DNA of 33,900 nucleotides from the NCBI GenBank assembly GCA_018398765.1, contig JAHBMJ010000377.1, positions 15,001 to 48,900 on the forward strand, in the 5' to 3' direction. Within the stretch, counting starts at the first letter, position 1. Each line of letters begins with the position of its first letter. Source of the stretch: Chromera velia (lineage: Eukaryota; Sar; Chromeraceae). A program made the position numbers and the translations under genes. A model generated the notes under the pieces. It was not told where the DNA came from and made no database searches. It was given only the letters and a program-made list of their open reading frames with translations. Positions 726 to 24,128 of the stretch are shown one piece after another.

Positions 726-757
<32 letters not shown>

Positions 758-765
758 TTCCTTTT
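585..765. repeat. (CTTT)n microsatellite with AAATTT interruptions
   Basis: A pyrimidine-only CTTT array is interrupted at least three times by the same TTTAAATTT word, giving a higher-order pattern of about 35-40 bp. Its long open frame of Phe/Leu/Ser codons is a product of the repeat, not a gene. Confidence 0.95.
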
Positions 766-1040
766 ATGAGTTCACCTCTCTGATTGTTTCTTTTTCTCTT
801 CCTTTTATGAGTTCACCTCTCTGATTGTTTCTTTTTCTCTTTCTTTCATGACTTCACCTCTCTGATTGTTTCTTTCTTTCTTTCATGACTTCACCTCTCT
901 GATTGTTTCTTTTTCTCTTTCTTTCATGACTTCACCTCTCTGATTGTTTCTTTTTCTCTTTCTTTCATGACTTCACCTCTCTGATTGTTTCTTTCTTTCT
1001 TTCTTTTATGACTTCGCGTCTCGTCTCGATGTATTTATCG
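766..1040 (+). repeat. 41-bp minisatellite, seven copies, ending next to an exon
   Basis: The unit contains ATGACTTCACCTCTCTGATTG followed by a T/C-rich spacer. Units start at 766, 807, 848, 885, 926, 967 and 1008, so the spacing is 41 bp with one 37-bp unit. The last unit diverges and runs to the acceptor TCTGCAG at 1041-1047. The array would supply the pyrimidine-rich end of the intron before the first visible SDR exon. Confidence 0.9.
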
Positions 1041-15020: not shown

Positions 15021-17547
15021 AACTTCAATAAGGACGGGAAAAGGTGCGTAGGTGCAAGGTGCAAGGTGCTTTGGATGAATACACCTGAATTCAGGTGCAT
15101 TTCAGGTGCATTCATCAGGTACACTGTTTGTACTATAAAACCATAAATTAAAGAGCCGTCTCCTAGGGTTTCTAGCGATTAAAAGGCGCCTAATTCAATG
15201 CTTGAACACACTTTTTCATATAGTATAGCTGTACAATCTTTTACTGATTGATTGATTGATTGATTGATGCCAAACCCTAGGTGGAGTTAGAACTCCCGGG
15301 CGGCGTATACATGCATAGGTTTGTTCAATTATGCCAGCTGCAAGCTAAGTGGACGACAGTTATTCAAACTTAATCCAATCAATCATTTACTATAATATGA
15401 CGAGAAATCATAAAGAGAGAAGAGGGTTGAGAGCGCGAAAGCGATATGATGAACTTGCGAACCCCCAAATTAGAAAAGGAGGCAGATACAAAAGGTGAGT
15501 CACAACGAGTGAAGCGGTTTGATTAAATTAATGCCAACCACTGCAAAAAGCCTTGTTCGGCAGTCCATCGGGGGCAGACAGAGAGCCGATAAATAAAATC
15601 ATCTACACACCGGCAGCAGGCTTCATAGGTGCACAGCTTTCTATCAGAGCAACCAATAGGCAGCCCACCTTGCCCGCCTATCGGGTTGTATGTCAGCATG
15701 CGCAAAAAAGAAAAGATCAAGCCATCTGTAACCGACAGGGCAGAACGGGGTCGGAAGGGCAGAGACGGAAGGAACACTGGAGGACGACTTGCTGCACAGG
15801 AGGAAGACAAACATACGGCGGGAGGACGGGAAGTCGCGCTGCAGAGGGATGAGTCTAGCAAGGAGGGGAAAGTGAGAGGAAGATTGCCCATCATCCTCAG
15901 AAGCCTTCATGCAAGAAGACTATAAGAATTTGATTGAAAAACACATAAAAAGTTGATAAAAATATACAGCAAGTCTCGTTTTTTAATTATGAAAACGATC
16001 CTTTGAACTGGATTCAACTACACTGCAGCATTTCACTTCTTGCAAACATGTTTGCAAATGCATTCTCATGTCATTCATCAATAAATTAAAAAACAGCAAA
16101 AGCATTCCAACGATGGGGAATCTTCTCAATTTTGTGGAGAAGCCGGTGCTGTCCGAAGCATGAAAAACATCCCGCTGCCTAAGCAAAGAATAAAAGAGGT
16201 ACAGTCATGTTGCTAACTGAGTAGAGAGTGGAAGAGACGGAGATATGCTGTTGACTGAGTACTAGAGAATGAAAGAGGTGCGGTGACACCGTCATGCTGC
16301 TGATAGAGCAGAGAGTGAGATAGATGGAGCCACGCTGCGGCCTGAGCTAAGAATAAGAGAGGTGCAGTCATGCTGCTGTCTGAACTCAGAATAAAAGAGG
16401 TGTAGTCGTGCTGCTGCCAAAGAGATGCCGACATGCTGTTGCTTGAACAAAGAATGAAAGAGGTGCGGTCATGCTGCTAATAGAGCAGAGAGTGAGATAG
16501 ATGGAGCCACGCTGCGGCCTGAGCCAAGAATGAGAGAGGTGCAGTCATGCTGCTGCCTGGGCAGAGAGTGAAAGAGGTATAGTCCTGATACTGACTGAGC
16601 ACTGCCAGAGAGTGAGAGTGATGGAGTCATGCAGCTGACTGTGCAAAGAATGAAAGAGATACAGTCATGCTGCTGCCTCGGCAGAGACTGAAAGAAATGC
16701 AGACGTGCCACTTATGGGCAGAGAGTGAGACGGAGTGAGAGGGATGCAGTCCGGCTGCTCGTGAGTAGAGAATGAAAGAGATGTGGTCATACTGCTGTCT
16801 GAGCGGAGAATGAAAGAGGTGCAGTCATGTTGTTGTCTCAGCAAAGAATGGAAGAGGTGCAGTGACTGTCATATTACTGACTGAGCAGAGAGTGAGAGCG
16901 ATGGAATCATGCTGTTGCCTGAACAAAGAATGAAAGAGGCGCAGTCACGCTGCTGCCTCGGCAGAGAGTGAAAGAAAAGTAGAGGTGCCGCTCCTGGGCA
17001 GAGAGTGAGACATGCAGAGAGAGAGGGACTGCGTCATGCAGTCAGGCTGCTGGCTGAGCAGAGAATGAAAGAGATTCGGTCATGCTGCTGTCTGAGCAGA
17101 GAATAAAAGAGGTGTAATTATGCTGTTGACTCAGCAGAGAAAGAAAGAGGAACAGTCATATTATACTGGTCGACTGCAAGAGCTGGATGCACGGTTTTAA
17201 TTTGTGAGGATCTGCATGCATGCATGCATGCGCTTGCATGCGAGACTGGCGGCGCACAAGACCCAGCGCTATATAGAGGTGCGGCACGGGCGCCGCGCCA
17301 GTGAAAGGCCCCGTCAGCTGCTGCATCTTCACCTATATATAGACATTACTCATATATGGGGACGCGGCATACATGAAAAAACCCTCAATCATCATATAAA
17401 CATTCAACTCTTAAAACAATCTCTTTGCTCCACACAATGCACCTATCAGGTGCATCCAGGTGCATAGGTGTAAATCAGGTGCATCAGGTGCATTTTTCAA
17501 GAATGCACCTTTTTTGGAATGCACCTTTTCCCGTCCTTAAACTTCAA
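15021..17547. mobile_element. 2.5-kb non-autonomous hAT-like transposon
   Basis: The ends carry a perfect 19-bp inverted repeat, TAAGGACGGGAAAAGGTGC (15029-15047 and, inverted, 17521-17539). They are flanked by an exact 8-bp direct repeat AACTTCAA (15021-15028 and 17540-17547), as expected for a hAT-type insertion. Both subterminal zones are packed with CAGGTGCAT and AGGTGC words in both orientations (15041-15121 and 17440-17525), resembling transposase-binding repeats. The interior has no transposase-like frame: 15130-16180 is unique sequence with short frames, 16180-17170 a degenerate minisatellite, and 17200-17340 GCATGC-rich. It is therefore probably mobilised in trans by an autonomous relative elsewhere. 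Confidence 0.85.
16180..17170. repeat. Degenerate minisatellite of about 40-45 bp inside the transposon
   Basis: Roughly 23 units share the order GAGCAGAGAGTGAAAGAGGTGCAGTCATGCTGCTG with heavy substitution. A higher-order repeat is visible: the segment with AGATAGATGGAGCCACGCTG recurs 177 bp later (16322 and 16499), so multi-unit blocks have been duplicated. Open frames across it are repeat products. Confidence 0.85.
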
Positions 17548-18107: not shown

Positions 18108-18862
18108 TCAAATGATCGGGCAGCCGAACTCGAGGTTGCCATCCACATTCCACTTTTTGTACACGCACGCTTGGACAAAGAGGCCTGTGAAATCGGCCAG
18201 CGTGACTCCGAGAGAATCTCCAACCCCCGCTGCCGTGAGGGCAAATTCTCTCTTTTCTCCCTCCTGGAAGTCGCTCGAGATCAGAGTGTACACCCCCACG
18301 TACACCCCCCCTCCGAACAGACCGGCCACGAAGGTTAAGGAAAGAAGCCACCAGTCGTATACCACGGGAGGGTGGGTCCATGCAGCCCAACAGAAGAAGA
18401 CCAGAAGCACGCACTGCGCAAGCGGCATGGGCCACTTCAGCTGCTGCCAGGCGCTCATCGGCAGGAACGCCCCAGAGGACCGGGACACAAGCACCCCGAC
18501 CTGCATGCATGCATGTGCGGAATTAAGGAAATTGGATGAATGAATCGCAGGATGCACATATGGACGTGCACTTCTTCCTTCAGTCTGTCGCCTGAATCCA
18601 CCACCTGACGCACTGAAGCGAGCACTACGCAATCGTCACGTGTTGGTCAACACTATTAGGGGCGGCCAGCCACTTATGTGCTGCAAAAAGGAGCAACTAC
18701 CAGTACACAAGGAAAGCGAGGCATGCAGAGAGGTAGACAGACAGGCAGATACTATAGCATTCACAACGGAAGGTAGAGACAAAGATGACTCAGCTGACAG
18801 GCCCGACAAGTAACCGAAGAAGCGGTACAGACAGACAGACAGACAGACAGACAATTAGACGA

Positions 18863-18970: not shown

Positions 18971-19984
18971 TTAGACGAACAGACATACATACATACATAC
19001 AGACAGACAGACAGACAATTAGACGAACAGACAGACAGGCAGGCAGACAGACAGACAGACAGGCAGACAGACAGGCAGACCTATGCATTGTCGGCTATGG
19101 ATACGCTCCAATGGAGTTGGCAAAAAACGACACACCAGCGCTATCTCACACTAGGCTTATGAGAAGATGTCTGCAACACCTAGGCGGGCGGGCGCGCTAG
19201 ATTGGTCAGAACAATCTGAGTGGACCGATCGACCGACGAACCTGATAGAGCCAGTTGGAGATGAAGTAGAACTTCTTTCTTGCCTCCTTGTTGTTCACCG
19301 AGGGAAATCCAATCGCAGCCCAGGTACCCGACTGCACGTCCGCATCCGCACAGGCAGACAGAAAAGAATCTTTGTGTCCTCCTTCACAGCTTTTTCTTCA
19401 CTGCTTTCATGGTTTTTGTCAACAATGCTCGTCTCATGTTTTCAATCTCACTATCTTAATTGTGCCTCTCGGCATGTCTTGCTCGTCCTCCCCCTCCCCC
19501 TCCCAGGGAGGCTGTCCATGCACCTGAATTAATTGTCAGATGAAGAACGCCGCATCGGAGTGTGTCGAGTCTGGCCGCAAGGAGAACGAACGGCGTAAAA
19601 GAGCCCAGTTTATTCTTTTAAAAACTCTAGAGTATGCCTCCACTTCTTGCACGATCATACAACTCATTGGGAGAGTTGCTTTCCGCTTTCTCCAACTGAA
19701 TTGTGAAACCTCTCTGAATGCCACACCCTCCCGATCGATCTGCCACCTTTTTCCATGCATTTTTCATCGGCCATCCCTTTATTCTCTTATCTGCTCTCTG
19801 TCTGCATGCATGTCCCATCCGGGTTATCTGCTCTCTGTCTGCATGCATGTCCCATCCACCCGGATTGTGTACTCTCTCTGTGTGTATGCATGTTTGTGTG
19901 TGTCCCATGCACCCGGATTGTGTACTCTCTCTGTGTGTATGCATGTTTGTGTGTGTCCCATGCACCTGCAATGCACCTGCATTG

Positions 19985-20020
<36 letters not shown>

Positions 20021-21099
20021 ATACAGTCTGTGTGTATGCATGTTTGTGTGTGTCCCACCCACCTGCATTGTGTACTCTGCAAAGTACACGAGGGCCAGAG
20101 GAACGATGTAGTGCCACAGGGAGAGGAAGAAACGGAACTTTTCTCCTCCGGAGGCGGGAGATCCGGAATCCGACTCCGACACTGTCGCAGTGACCGTCTC
20201 CCCTCTCTCTGCCGTCTCGCTCTGCAACGCCGTCATGGACGCGACGGAGGAGACCGGCCGGACGGCCGAAGCCTCTCCTGGAGGGTGGCAGGCGAAAGAC
20301 GAACGCTGGCGGACCTGCATCCACAACCATGCATGCGTTTATTTTCATACAGAATTCTTATACAAAATAAAAATAAAAGAATGAAAATACACGCAGACAG
20401 GCGAAAGACGAACGCTGGCGGACCTGCATCCACAACCATGCATGCGTTTTTTTTCATACAGAATTCTTATACAAAATAAAAATAAAAGAATGAAAATACA
20501 CGCAGACAGGCGAAAGAGGAACGCTGACGCACCTGCATCCACAACAATGCACGCGTTTATTTTCATACAGAATTCTTATACAAAATAAAAATAAAAGAAT
20601 GAAAATACACGCAGACAGGCGAAAGAGGAACGCTGACGCACCTGCATCCACAACAATGCATGCGTTTATTTTCATACAGAATTCTTATACAAAATAAAAA
20701 AATAAAAGAATGAAAATACACGCAGACAGGCGAAAGAGGAACGCTGACGCACCTGCAACCGCACACAAGCAGGCATACAACCGTTCAGTCTTTCTCCGCG
20801 TTAGTCAGAAAGTCATGGGAATAATCATGGAGTGCAGCTCAATCTAAAATGCCAGCCAGCTGACCATAGCTTGTCCCTGGGGTGTCTCTGAGTCTCTCCC
20901 CTCTGTCCCTTGGGGCGTTTGCTCTTCTCTGTCTCTGGGTACAGGGTGGAGGAGGCCGAAGAAGAAAGTGGCCAGCCAGCAGAGAGGGAACACGCAGGTG
21001 ATCAGCATCATCCAGGTCAGCCCCAAGTTCAGGGCCTCCATCAGGACGAAATTCCAGAGGAAACCGAAAGGACCTGCATGCAGGAAGAGGCAAAAAACG

Positions 21100-21131
<32 letters not shown>

Positions 21132-22724
21132 AGTAAGTGGTCAGACTGAAGAAGACCAGAGCAAAGGAATAGAATGGTGCTCCGCTGACCCCAAAGAAAG
21201 ACATCAGGTGTGCCTCAGGAGAGCATTTTGATTGAATGAAAAAATGCTACACATACTCATGCACACGACCTTGCAGATGAGGTAAACGAGGAAGAAAGGA
21301 CTACACGAGACTGAGGCAGAGGCCTCCAATGACCTCAACACGTGCACACGCAAAAAAAGTACACGAAAAATACGGAGACATCAGACACCGTGGAAGAAGC
21401 AGACACCATGGCTTCATGTGAGCCAGAGAGACGGACAGACGGACCAGCAAGTCCGGTTCCCGAACTCCAGCACGTCACGGTGGTTCTGCCATCGTAGAAG
21501 GAGGTGTATGCGATCATGGACACCTCCCCAAGGGCCTGCTGGAGACTTGCACACCCGACCCCGACCAGCTGGAAGGGTACACTTTTGGAGAAGGCCACCA
21601 TCAGAAACGAGGCAGTCATCAGACAGGCGCAGCATCCCACTCGAATGCGGTAGGAAACTTTGTGAGCCTGCATGTGAAATTGCATCAATGGAAAATCAGG
21701 CGCAGCATCCCACTCGAATGCGGTAGGAAACTTTGTGAGCCTGCATGTGGAATTGCATCAATGGAAAATCAGGCGCAGCATCCCACTCGAATGCGGTAGG
21801 AAACTTTGTGAGCCTGCATGTGAAATTGCATCAATGGAAAATCAGGCGCAGCATCCCACTCGAATGCGGTAGGAAACTTTGTGAGCCTGCATGTGAAATT
21901 GCATCAATGGAAAATCAAGCGCAGCATCCCACTCGAATGCGGTAGGAAAATTTGTGAGCCTGCATGTGAAATTGCATCAATGGAAAATCAGGCGCAGCAT
22001 CCCACTCGGATGCGGTAGGAAAATTTGTGAGCCTGCATGTGAAATTGCATCAATGGAAAATCAGGCGCAGCATCCCACTCGAATGCGGTAGGAAACTTTG
22101 TGAGCCTGCATGTGAAATTGCATCAATGGAAAAACAGAGAGCAATTGCCGACGTTCCCAAGAATCTGAATTCAGAAAATGCGACCAAGAAGATGCACTTC
22201 TCAAGCAACCAAGGTCAGTTGTTTTGCTGGTTTAGAAAATGCATGCAGCTGGCGGAGTCCCTCCTGTTTCACACCAGTCAGCGCTCACCTAAGGCAACCA
22301 CATAGATTGAAGCCGACTGAATGAAGCAGAAGGACGGCTGACAGACAGACAGACAGATTCGGATGCGTCTGTCAACGACGAAGAGTGTGCAACAATGTGC
22401 GAGCATGCTGCGTGGTGAATGAAGAGCCGTTCCACTTACCCAGTAGGGAATGGTCAGTTTGACCATGAAAGAGGGCAGGATGGAGGCGATGAAAACGAGC
22501 CCCACCGACTGCTCTGAGATCTCTTTGGCAGCTGCCAGGAAGACCACATAGGGGAAGTTGTTGAAGAGTCCCAACAGGAAGAACGCAATCAAGTTCTGCA
22601 TATTCTCCTTGGGGGCCTCAGAGGGGGGAGAGGACGCTCCCGAATGATCAGTCAGATCCAACATCGGCATCTTGGCGTCGCCACCCTGAGGGGCAACTGA
22701 GTTCTCTTTGCCGGGGGGCTGCAT
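18108..22724 (-). CDS. CLN3: CLN3/battenin family lysosomal (vacuolar) membrane protein, complete, six exons
   Basis: CLN3 is a polytopic protein of lysosome/vacuole membranes (yeast Btn1), linked to lysosomal homeostasis and glycerophosphodiester export. Exons are 22724-22440, 21667-21445, 21073-20865, 20314-20063, 19331-19242 and 18500-18108 (TGA); all phases agree and give 483 residues (human about 438). Family blocks in order: FFLLGLFNNFPYVVFLAAAKEI (starting near residue 48), SILPSFMVKLTIPYW, SVPFQLVGVGCASLQQALGE, TSFYDGRTTVTCWSSGTGLAG (residues about 150-170), a cytosolic low-complexity loop (about 215-300), WHYIVPLALVYFAEY, FYFISNWLYQVGVLVSRSSG, LFGGGVYVGVYTLISSD and REFALTAAGVGDSLGVTLA. 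The glycosylated lumenal loop of animal CLN3 after the first helix is short, as in fungi. Donors are GTAAGT, GTCCGT, GTCAGC, GTGGGT and GTTCGT; all acceptors end TGCAG. Repeats in the first, third and fourth introns copy exon edges. Identification is very secure. Confidence 0.95.
18830..19080 (-). repeat. (ACAG)n array with a regular interruption in CLN3 intron 5
   Basis: ACAG tetranucleotide runs are interrupted about every 37-48 bp by ACAATTAGACGAACAGA (about 18850, 18890, 18926, 18967 and 19015), with ACAT and GGCA variants near 18985 and 19040. The interruptions make it a higher-order satellite rather than a plain microsatellite. Confidence 0.9.
19803..20062 (-). repeat. Tandem copies of the CLN3 exon 4 donor edge in intron 4
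   Basis: The exon 4 end and donor read, on the minus strand, GAGTACACAATGCAG|GTGGGT. Downstream in the intron AGAGTACACAAT followed by GCAGGTGCATGGG or CCGGGTGCATGGG, plus a CA-rich spacer, recurs. The ATTGTGTACTCT words on the plus strand lie at 19864, 19917, 19981 and 20067 (spacings 53, 64 and 86 bp, the larger ones from inserted CT repeat). Thus 12-15 coding bases next to the donor were duplicated into the intron. Confidence 0.8.
20290..20768 (-). repeat. 109-bp tandem repeat carrying the CLN3 exon 4 acceptor
   Basis: Units start at 20290, 20400, 20509, 20618 and 20729 (last partial; one unit 2 bp longer through extra A). On the minus strand each contains GGATGCAG|GTNCGNCAGCGTTC, i.e. 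the acceptor plus the first nine codons of exon 4 (VRQRSSFAC), followed by an AT-rich segment with TTTTATTTTTATTTTGTATAA. Only the copy at 20314 continues into the real exon; the upstream ones run into TAA. Confidence 0.9.
21624..22134 (-). repeat. 73-bp tandem repeat carrying the CLN3 exon 2 acceptor, seven copies
   Basis: Units start exactly every 73 bp at 21624, 21697, 21770, 21843, 21916, 21989 and 22062 and are nearly identical. On the minus strand each has TTTCACATGCAG|GCTCACAAAG and the first 14 codons of exon 2 (AHKVSYRIRVGCCA), then TGATTTTCCATTG. Only the last copy (acceptor at 21667/21668) reads on into the exon; the other six reach TGA directly after the 14 codons. Confidence 0.95.
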
Positions 22725-24128
22725 GTTCTCTGTCAGTCAGGAACTCTTGTGTGGCGGCTATAGCCAGGCGTGCGGATTCTGATTCTACGGGACGCGCTGT
22801 CCACTTTTATATATATTATACGGAATTGCGCGTGTGTGGTCAAGTTGTGTCACAAATTGCTTCTGTGTGCATGAGCTGCGTGCTGCTGTCAGATTCGTCC
22901 AATCGATGCTTTGCTTCATGGACTCTTGCATCTGCATGGTGAACATTAGTTGGACAATTAAGACTCTGACAGACTCGGTGCATGCATGCATTCATGCATG
23001 TTCGATCGTCTGACCTGCATGCATGCATGCATGCATGCATCAGAGTGGCCCCGGAAAGCCATGCAACGCGCCACGCACGCGCTTGCGTGCATGCATGCAC
23101 GATTCATGCATGGACACAGCTGCTATAGCGCGCGCGCGATGCGCGCCCGCGCGTCCGACGGCCGGGATCGACTCGGATCATCTCGATCGATCGAAGCTCT
23201 GTCAGAGCTCTTTGAGCCTTTCTCTCGTAATGAACGAAGTCCGCTTTGAAAAATCCCAGCTAGAGTACCCCATACTCCTCCAGCATGTTGTTCACAAAGA
23301 GAATCGGTTGCACGCTTCCAGTGACTAGGCGGGCGAAGATTTGATTTCTCATCTGCATGAGAGAATCATGAACCGTCCCCTGGGAGAAGCTAAAAGCCGT
23401 CTCCGCAGAGAGAGGCTGAGAGACCTGGCCACTCGAGTCAGGCTGCCGCCTGGGTGGAGACGGGTGGACATGTGCTTTGTCAAGTCAGTCTGTCACTACT
23501 TGCTGACTCATTCATTCATTCGTTGAGTCAGTCAGTCAGTCAGTCAGTCAGTCAGTCGTTCGGTCTTCAGTCTGTTATTCAGCCAGTCTCTGAGTCAGAT
23601 TGTCCGTCTACCAGTAAGTCCATCTGCCAGCCAGTAAATAAGCCCGCCATCGTGTGTCACTGCTTCTGCTGCAGATAGTCCAGTCAGCAGTCTGCCCACT
23701 GCATGCATGCATGCATGCATGCATGGCGTCCCTCCTGCAGCTCTGTGTCGTTCCTCGCTCGTTACTCGTTCGGCCCTCACAGTGTCATGCGCATGCAATC
23801 CGTCCGTCTGTCCGTCGCGTATTTATCGTTTGTTTCATCAATCCGGCCTTTCGTCAGACTGTTTGTTCGCGTGCACATACAGAGAGAGAGAAGTGCATAC
23901 TGAGGAAGAAACTCCGGATTGCTTGGGGAGTCAATCCTTCAGCCGGGGGACCAGCCTGCCTGCCTTCCTCGCAGCATTATTCCTGTGGACGCCGCAATGG
24001 AACTTCAGAAAGAATGATCGCCCGAATCAGAAGCTCATCTGACTCACGCAGACTCTGCCCGTCTGTGGAACAAACTCGTGTAGCATCTCCTCTTGCATTT
24101 GGTTGGGTCGTCTGCTGCTGTTTTGCAG
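22725..24128. other. Intergenic region between divergent genes, GCATGC-rich
   Basis: This lies between the CLN3 start (minus strand) and the PNKP-like exon (plus strand), so promoters of both should be here. GCATGCATGC runs occur at 22980-23040, 23085-23112 and 23700-23725, a GTCA array at 23526-23560, and CGCGCGCGATGCGCGCCCGCGCG at 23129-23151. A plus-strand frame from ATG 23369 (MNRPLGEAKSRLRRERLRD) followed by a GTCAGT donor at 23484 could be an upstream exon of the PNKP-like gene, but I cannot prove the junctions. Confidence 0.5.

Follow-up and report, generated by a model that had tools for sequence, protein, structure and literature searches.

What does it take to read a gene correctly when one of its splice acceptors stands seven times in a row, and how do such copies come about? 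The question is raised by a 33,900-nt stretch of the Chromera velia genome (C376:15001-48900, hereafter the window). The genome searched comprised 177.8 Mb in 4040 contigs.

The CLN3 gene and the 73-bp array at exon 2

The minus strand of the window carries a gene with six coding exons and five introns, all of the latter bounded by GT and AG. When the exons are joined, the reading frame stays open for 461 codons, and codon 5 is the first ATG. Matches to the Pfam family PF02487 (CLN3) exceed the curated cut-off in exons 1, 2 and 6 and fall below it in exon 4; exons 3 and 5, for which no Pfam match of their own was found at E ≤ 1, were placed by frame and order. The profile matches and the open model bear out the assignment of the gene to CLN3 in the initial annotation. 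The exons are as follows.

22440..22736, minus strand: coding exon 1, PF02487 profile 1-65 (the query running into the intron), open spliced frame; first ATG at 22724, donor TGG followed by GTAAGT
21445..21667, minus strand: exon 2, PF02487 profile 53-126, spliced frame
20943..21073, minus strand: exon 3, placed by its frame and its location within the open spliced model
20063..20314, minus strand: exon 4, PF02487 profile 200-251 (E 4e-4), spliced model; donor CAG followed by GTGGGT
19242..19331, minus strand: exon 5, from the open spliced model
18108..18500, minus strand: exon 6 with stop TGA, PF02487 profile 285-390 (E 5e-19), spliced model

The PF02487 match on exon 2 begins with the residue directly behind the AG, and the first 44 nt of this exon form the exonic part of a 73-bp tandem repeat. 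TRF placed the repeat at 21624-22137 (period 73, 7.0 copies, 97% matches, score 986); the seven copies themselves fill 21624-22134 (about 511 bp). In each, 29 nt of intron, closing with ATGCAG, precede 44 nt of exon 2 (14 codons plus 2 nt), as had been described from the sequence at the outset, and the comparison of copies upholds that description. Numbered from the exon 1 side, they are:

21624..21696, minus strand: copy 7, exon-proximal, with the acceptor that is productive by frame; exon start at 21667
21697..21769, minus strand: copy 6, decoy acceptor; exon-like part from 21740
21770..21842, minus strand: copy 5, decoy acceptor at 21813
21843..21915, minus strand: copy 4, decoy acceptor at 21886
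21916..21988, minus strand: copy 3, decoy acceptor at 21959
21989..22061, minus strand: copy 2, decoy acceptor at 22032
22062..22134, minus strand: copy 1, decoy acceptor at 22105; first base differs

Copies 4, 5 and 7 are identical, and the mean difference among all seven is 1.6 of 73 positions. As each of the other four carries only one or two changes relative to these three, the expansion looks recent, in support of an earlier proposal. The same annotation had spoken of seven identical 3' splice sites: seven acceptors do stand in a row, but copy 6 (21740) carries C instead of T at the position 10 nt upstream of the exon, and copy 1, the most upstream, departs in its first base.

Only the acceptor at 21667 keeps the frame that leads to the full protein. 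From each of the six upstream acceptors the spliced frame reaches a TGA after 14 codons, AHK(V/F)SYRIRVGCCA, just as predicted when the exon-proximal copy was first named the only productive one. In the exon-proximal copy a branch-point-like TTGAT (YTRAY-type) begins at -21; it is invariant in all copies. With ATGCAG behind it, each 73-bp unit has the appearance of a full acceptor module. Each decoy unit also holds GTGGGA 27 nt after its acceptor, and it is conceivable in principle that decoys are spliced as in-frame microexons of nine codons (AHKVSYRIR).

The two edges of the array share CTG (CTCTCTG before TTTTTCC on the intron side, GCGCCTG before TCTG on the exon side), which would fit a tandem duplication at 3-nt microhomology. 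By its anatomy, that of a minisatellite spanning a 3' splice site, we file the array as a mirage, the name given in amphioxus to minisatellites that straddle exon-intron borders, whether 5' or 3' (PMC3087553, in the part consulted). The explanation that we hold to be highly probable as a whole joins three things: a mirage born of tandem duplication at CTG microhomology, splicing at the exon-proximal acceptor, and splice borders as preferred places of duplication. We infer the duplication mechanism, the splicing choice and the border preference from the sequence. The duplicated segment would have reached 29 nt into intron 1 and 44 nt into exon 2; it would first have been doubled in tandem between breakpoints sharing CTG, and slippage or unequal exchange would then have raised the number of copies to seven. 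The array would be tolerated because a whole acceptor is still attached to the exon body in its outermost copy, with the six inner copies falling within the intron. Splicing would occur mainly at the exon-proximal acceptor, use of the others would lead to premature stops, and the decoys would be silent or give degraded transcripts.

Further CLN3 arrays and a dispersed palindromic element

The initial annotation saw one array. CLN3 has two more, at the intron 3 acceptor and the intron 4 donor, and altogether 3 of its 10 splice sites are multiplied.

20289..20757, minus strand: second border array (TRF: unit 109 bp, 4.3 copies), carrying the exon 4 acceptor five times
19824..20078, minus strand: third border array, in which the end of exon 4 and the intron 4 donor recur in four degenerate copies of 52 nt

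In the second array the acceptor copies read TGCAG followed by GT(G/C)CG(T/C)CAGCG, and the four upstream acceptors lead to stops. The 26-nt exon part shows 3 differences between the three distal copies and the two nearer ones, all of them silent changes at third codon positions, as expected if the exon-proximal copy codes. In the third array, the start-to-start spacings are 53, 53 and 97 nt, and one copy shares just 65% identity with the reference copy; of the four, two read ACACAATGCAG before GTG and two ACACAATCCGGGTG, and two lack CAG before GT.

It is exceedingly improbable that a single border was multiplied by mis-assembly. The evidence does come from a single assembly and, if this is the same as the published Chromera assembly, from one scaffolded from 13,987 contigs and rich in low-complexity repeats, as stated in the part of PMC4501334 at hand. 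Against an artefact, however, four of the seven 73-bp units carry private or shared substitutions, and the gene holds three arrays that differ in unit length.

The 109-bp unit is composite: about 46 nt are local border and about 63 nt belong to a palindromic element that is dispersed in the genome. The 17-mer ATTTTCATACAGAATTC has 319 exact genome matches, each tandem copy being counted separately (134 forward, 185 reverse), against 0 for the reversed control. By BLAST, the element part occurs on other contigs, often in tandem and with a period set by the locus (119 bp at C3687, 97 bp at C3776); among the loci examined, the periods of element-bearing arrays range from 66 to 120 bp, apart from one of 28 bp at L044. 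The hairpin fold z-scores of three element copies were -4.4, -4.9 and -2.6, compared with -1.2 for the 73-bp unit. A long tandem array of the element with a 119-bp unit, at least 24 copies among the BLAST matches listed, lies at L049/L050 (C3687:11246-14613).

A search of the loci examined for the element core gave 29 rows. Most of these places had been picked as tandem or CLN3-like and thus form a selected sample, in which 26 of the 29 rows have a direct repeat on both sides of the first element, against 97 of 600 random places; under a stricter rule the counts are 25 of 29 and 18 of 600. The rows without a flanking repeat are L019, L053 and L054, the last with its element beginning at the locus edge, and at L041:797 the repeat measures 12 nt only. 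The L019 'element' was rejected as a chance match within kinase coding sequence. Its removal leaves 28 places, 26 with flanking repeats; L049 and L050:77 are the two ends of one array, which brings the number of distinct places to 27. All five places from stretches chosen when the element had yet to be recognised (L004, L005, L006, L007 and L015) have a flanking repeat, and of these L004 and L015 alone are at a border by open-frame reading. The repeats are mostly about 25-50 nt long, with aligned lengths from 12 to 76 nt, some of which take in element ends. At L041:250-620 and L044:300-560 the element, with flanking repeats of about 30 nt, stands beside or inside apparent coding sequence, and these may be new introns.

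At some places, then, the element would sit between duplicated copies of a border. A tentative possibility, which we rate as somewhat doubtful, is that the element family itself multiplies splice sites: insertion, with a preference for borders, would copy about 25-50 nt of target, the element would remain as intron between the copies, and tandem expansion would follow. In this way several alternative acceptors or donors would come to line an exon, examples being CLN3 and the actin exon described below, which is affected on both sides.

Could the 73-bp array be an old by-product of such a mobile element with long target duplications, from which the element has since been lost? The intron 3 array holds the element, and strong flanking repeats accompany it in 25 of the 29 rows. 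We nevertheless regard this origin as quite unlikely, for the 29 nt of intron in the 73-bp unit are absent elsewhere in the genome, all seven of their matches at ≤3 mismatches lying inside the array, and no element was seen among the intron 4 donor copies in the sequence inspected. The 73-bp array itself shows no trace of the palindromic element. Membership of the 73-bp unit in a dispersed family was rejected, as all the matches of its intronic part are local.

Border duplications in other genes and the question of preference

Protein homology backs the border position of 4 of the 29 element rows: the CLN3 intron 3 acceptor, an acceptor array in a DnaJ gene (L038), and both the acceptor and the donor of an actin exon (L052, C2378:9800-10800). 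Joining the DnaJ exons at the inferred border gave a match to PF00226 with E 5.7e-6, just under the curated cut-off. In actin the acceptor is duplicated around a single palindromic element, and the donor of the same exon lies in a 2.4-copy array with the element, in which one donor copy has TT for GT; joined to the next exon, this exon matches PF00022 (E 1.1e-10).

Duplicated borders in actin, DnaJ and probably other genes favour a mutational process over control specific to CLN3. On the latter account, which follows the initial annotation's suggestion of tuning through nonsense-mediated decay, six upstream acceptors would compete with the productive one, early-stop transcripts would be degraded, and copy number would tune the CLN3 level. 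All six decoys indeed keep the AG and the branch-point-like TTGAT and stop after 14 codons, and the four intron 3 decoys likewise lead to stops. Copies this young would, however, retain AG without selection, and in amphioxus RT-PCR and the Adh3 data suggested that mirages leave regular splicing undisturbed (PMC3087553, as far as the part consulted goes). A regulatory role of the decoys thus appears very unlikely.

Nine more rows (L004, L015, L039, L043, L045, L051, L054, L055 and L056) are probably at borders, on the evidence of open frames beside AG or GT; for L039, L043, L045, L051, L055 and L056 no Pfam match was obtained at E ≤ 1. The remaining 16 of the 29 rows are unclear, non-border, a chance match or a double count. 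Two more border duplications were recognised by reading. One lies at L004:7597-7708, with a filler that starts like the element; in the other, at L006:9492-9665, an acceptor-bearing direct repeat of 39 nt flanks a 96-nt ATAC-rich filler unlike the element (0 Pfam matches).

Are splice borders preferred, or do duplications arise anywhere, those inside exons being purged while some survivors cover a splice site by chance? CLN3, with 10 splice sites in 4629 bp, sets a bound of 5-10% on the chance that a duplication covers a border. The 4 firm and 9 probable rows together (13 of 29) would lie far beyond this bound, and the 3 of 10 CLN3 splice sites likewise argue against chance; the four homology-backed rows of 29, taken alone, are not significant (P 0.07-0.31), and for this reason the general claim that splice borders are preferred duplication places in this genome is likely, not proven. 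Neutral minisatellites would also agree with arrays that spare borders by reading (L031:1314-1526, which is intronic, window 746-1022 and L005:314-652). They would agree as well with the 20 kinase loci (74.5 kb), in which no copied border was found among the seven repeats inspected (L031 and six others, short or low-complexity repeats being left out). Border arrays in most genes were not borne out by these loci, and the effect is therefore not everywhere. On balance we find a purely neutral origin unlikely.

Coding measures around the element gave mixed results. A codon-score test for exon edges was applied to 15 element arrays. A score of ≥5 was reached by 4 of them, compared with 6.9 expected from random places, and a score of ≥12 by 2, compared with 1.2 expected; since the scores of the known CLN3 acceptors were low too, this test has little power. 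A side-by-side coding score for 22 of the 29 rows (L019, L041:797, L047, L049, L050:77, L054 and CLN3 being left out by hand) gave a modest excess, with a better-side median of 3.7 against 0.93 (P 0.006), and no significant difference between the sides in the same 22 rows (P 0.08). TGCAG was present in 10 of 16 units against 4.3 expected, and AGGTRNG in 2 of 16 against 1.2 expected.

Relation to mirages, introners and other border repeats

Mirages are known from amphioxus Adh3 and the globin genes BflGb6 and BflGb9 (PMC3087553, part consulted). As there, the tandem unit in CLN3 holds intron and exon on the two sides of a splice site, here in seven copies, and both types of border are affected: donors in CLN3 intron 4 and actin, acceptors in CLN3. 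Unlike the amphioxus cases, the present ones occur in a photosynthetic protist, three of them in one gene, are elsewhere tied to a dispersed palindromic element, and are known from sequence alone.

Introners of algae, dinoflagellates and fungi are described, in the excerpts of PMC9860276 and PMC7789003 available, as short dispersed hairpin-forming elements beside splice sites with flanking direct repeats, and target duplications of 3-9 bp are given there for earlier families. The intron 3 element resembles them in being short, dispersed and hairpin-forming, in adjoining splice sites and in its flanking direct repeats. Introners, however, make up introns, whereas in CLN3 and actin the element is one part of longer introns and is flanked by variable repeats of about 25-50 nt rather than by a 3-9 bp target duplication. 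Dispersed copies were found for the intron 3 element alone; the 73-bp array is no introner, because it is not dispersed and forms no intron. With MITEs the element shares its shortness, palindromic form, many copies and a length too small for coding a protein, and the fold z-scores agree with the terminal inverted repeat or hairpin of that class. It differs from them in having no target-site duplication of fixed length and in being often arrayed in tandem together with flanking DNA.

Rogers and Bendich (2025), in the part of PMC11782384 consulted, report direct repeats at intron borders or close to them above chance level; those repeats measure 4-30 bp, with a mean of 11.4 bp, whereas here one whole border is copied. 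Among the literature matches listed, no title dealt with border-spanning arrays in Chromera, and an alveolate precedent is possible. Dinoflagellates are relatives of the host. Repeated intron boundary sequences are mentioned for them, and these may be of the same kind as the CLN3 arrays. Profile searches of the genome gave 58 matches for the light-harvesting family PF00504 and 11 for the alveolin family PF12314, which also matched one bacterial control; both counts agree with a photosynthetic alveolate, and a light-harvesting protein compared with PDB entries pointed to no single species.

Splice sites in this genome may be spots at which DNA repeatedly duplicates. If borders are preferred duplication sites, they would offer a route to longer introns, shifted splice sites and new alternative exons or introns. 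Chromera is a culturable alga, in which the idea of border preference is open to a direct test, and the CLN3 arrays provide a natural test of how the spliceosome chooses among seven near-identical acceptors.

Two other repeats in the window were noted. Downstream of CLN3, a degenerate 38-bp minisatellite of about 800 bp occupies 16334-17149. On the plus strand, an exon read at 1048-1204 directly abuts a GTCA tetranucleotide array (1205-1283), which presents many donor-like GTCAGT sites spaced 4 nt apart.
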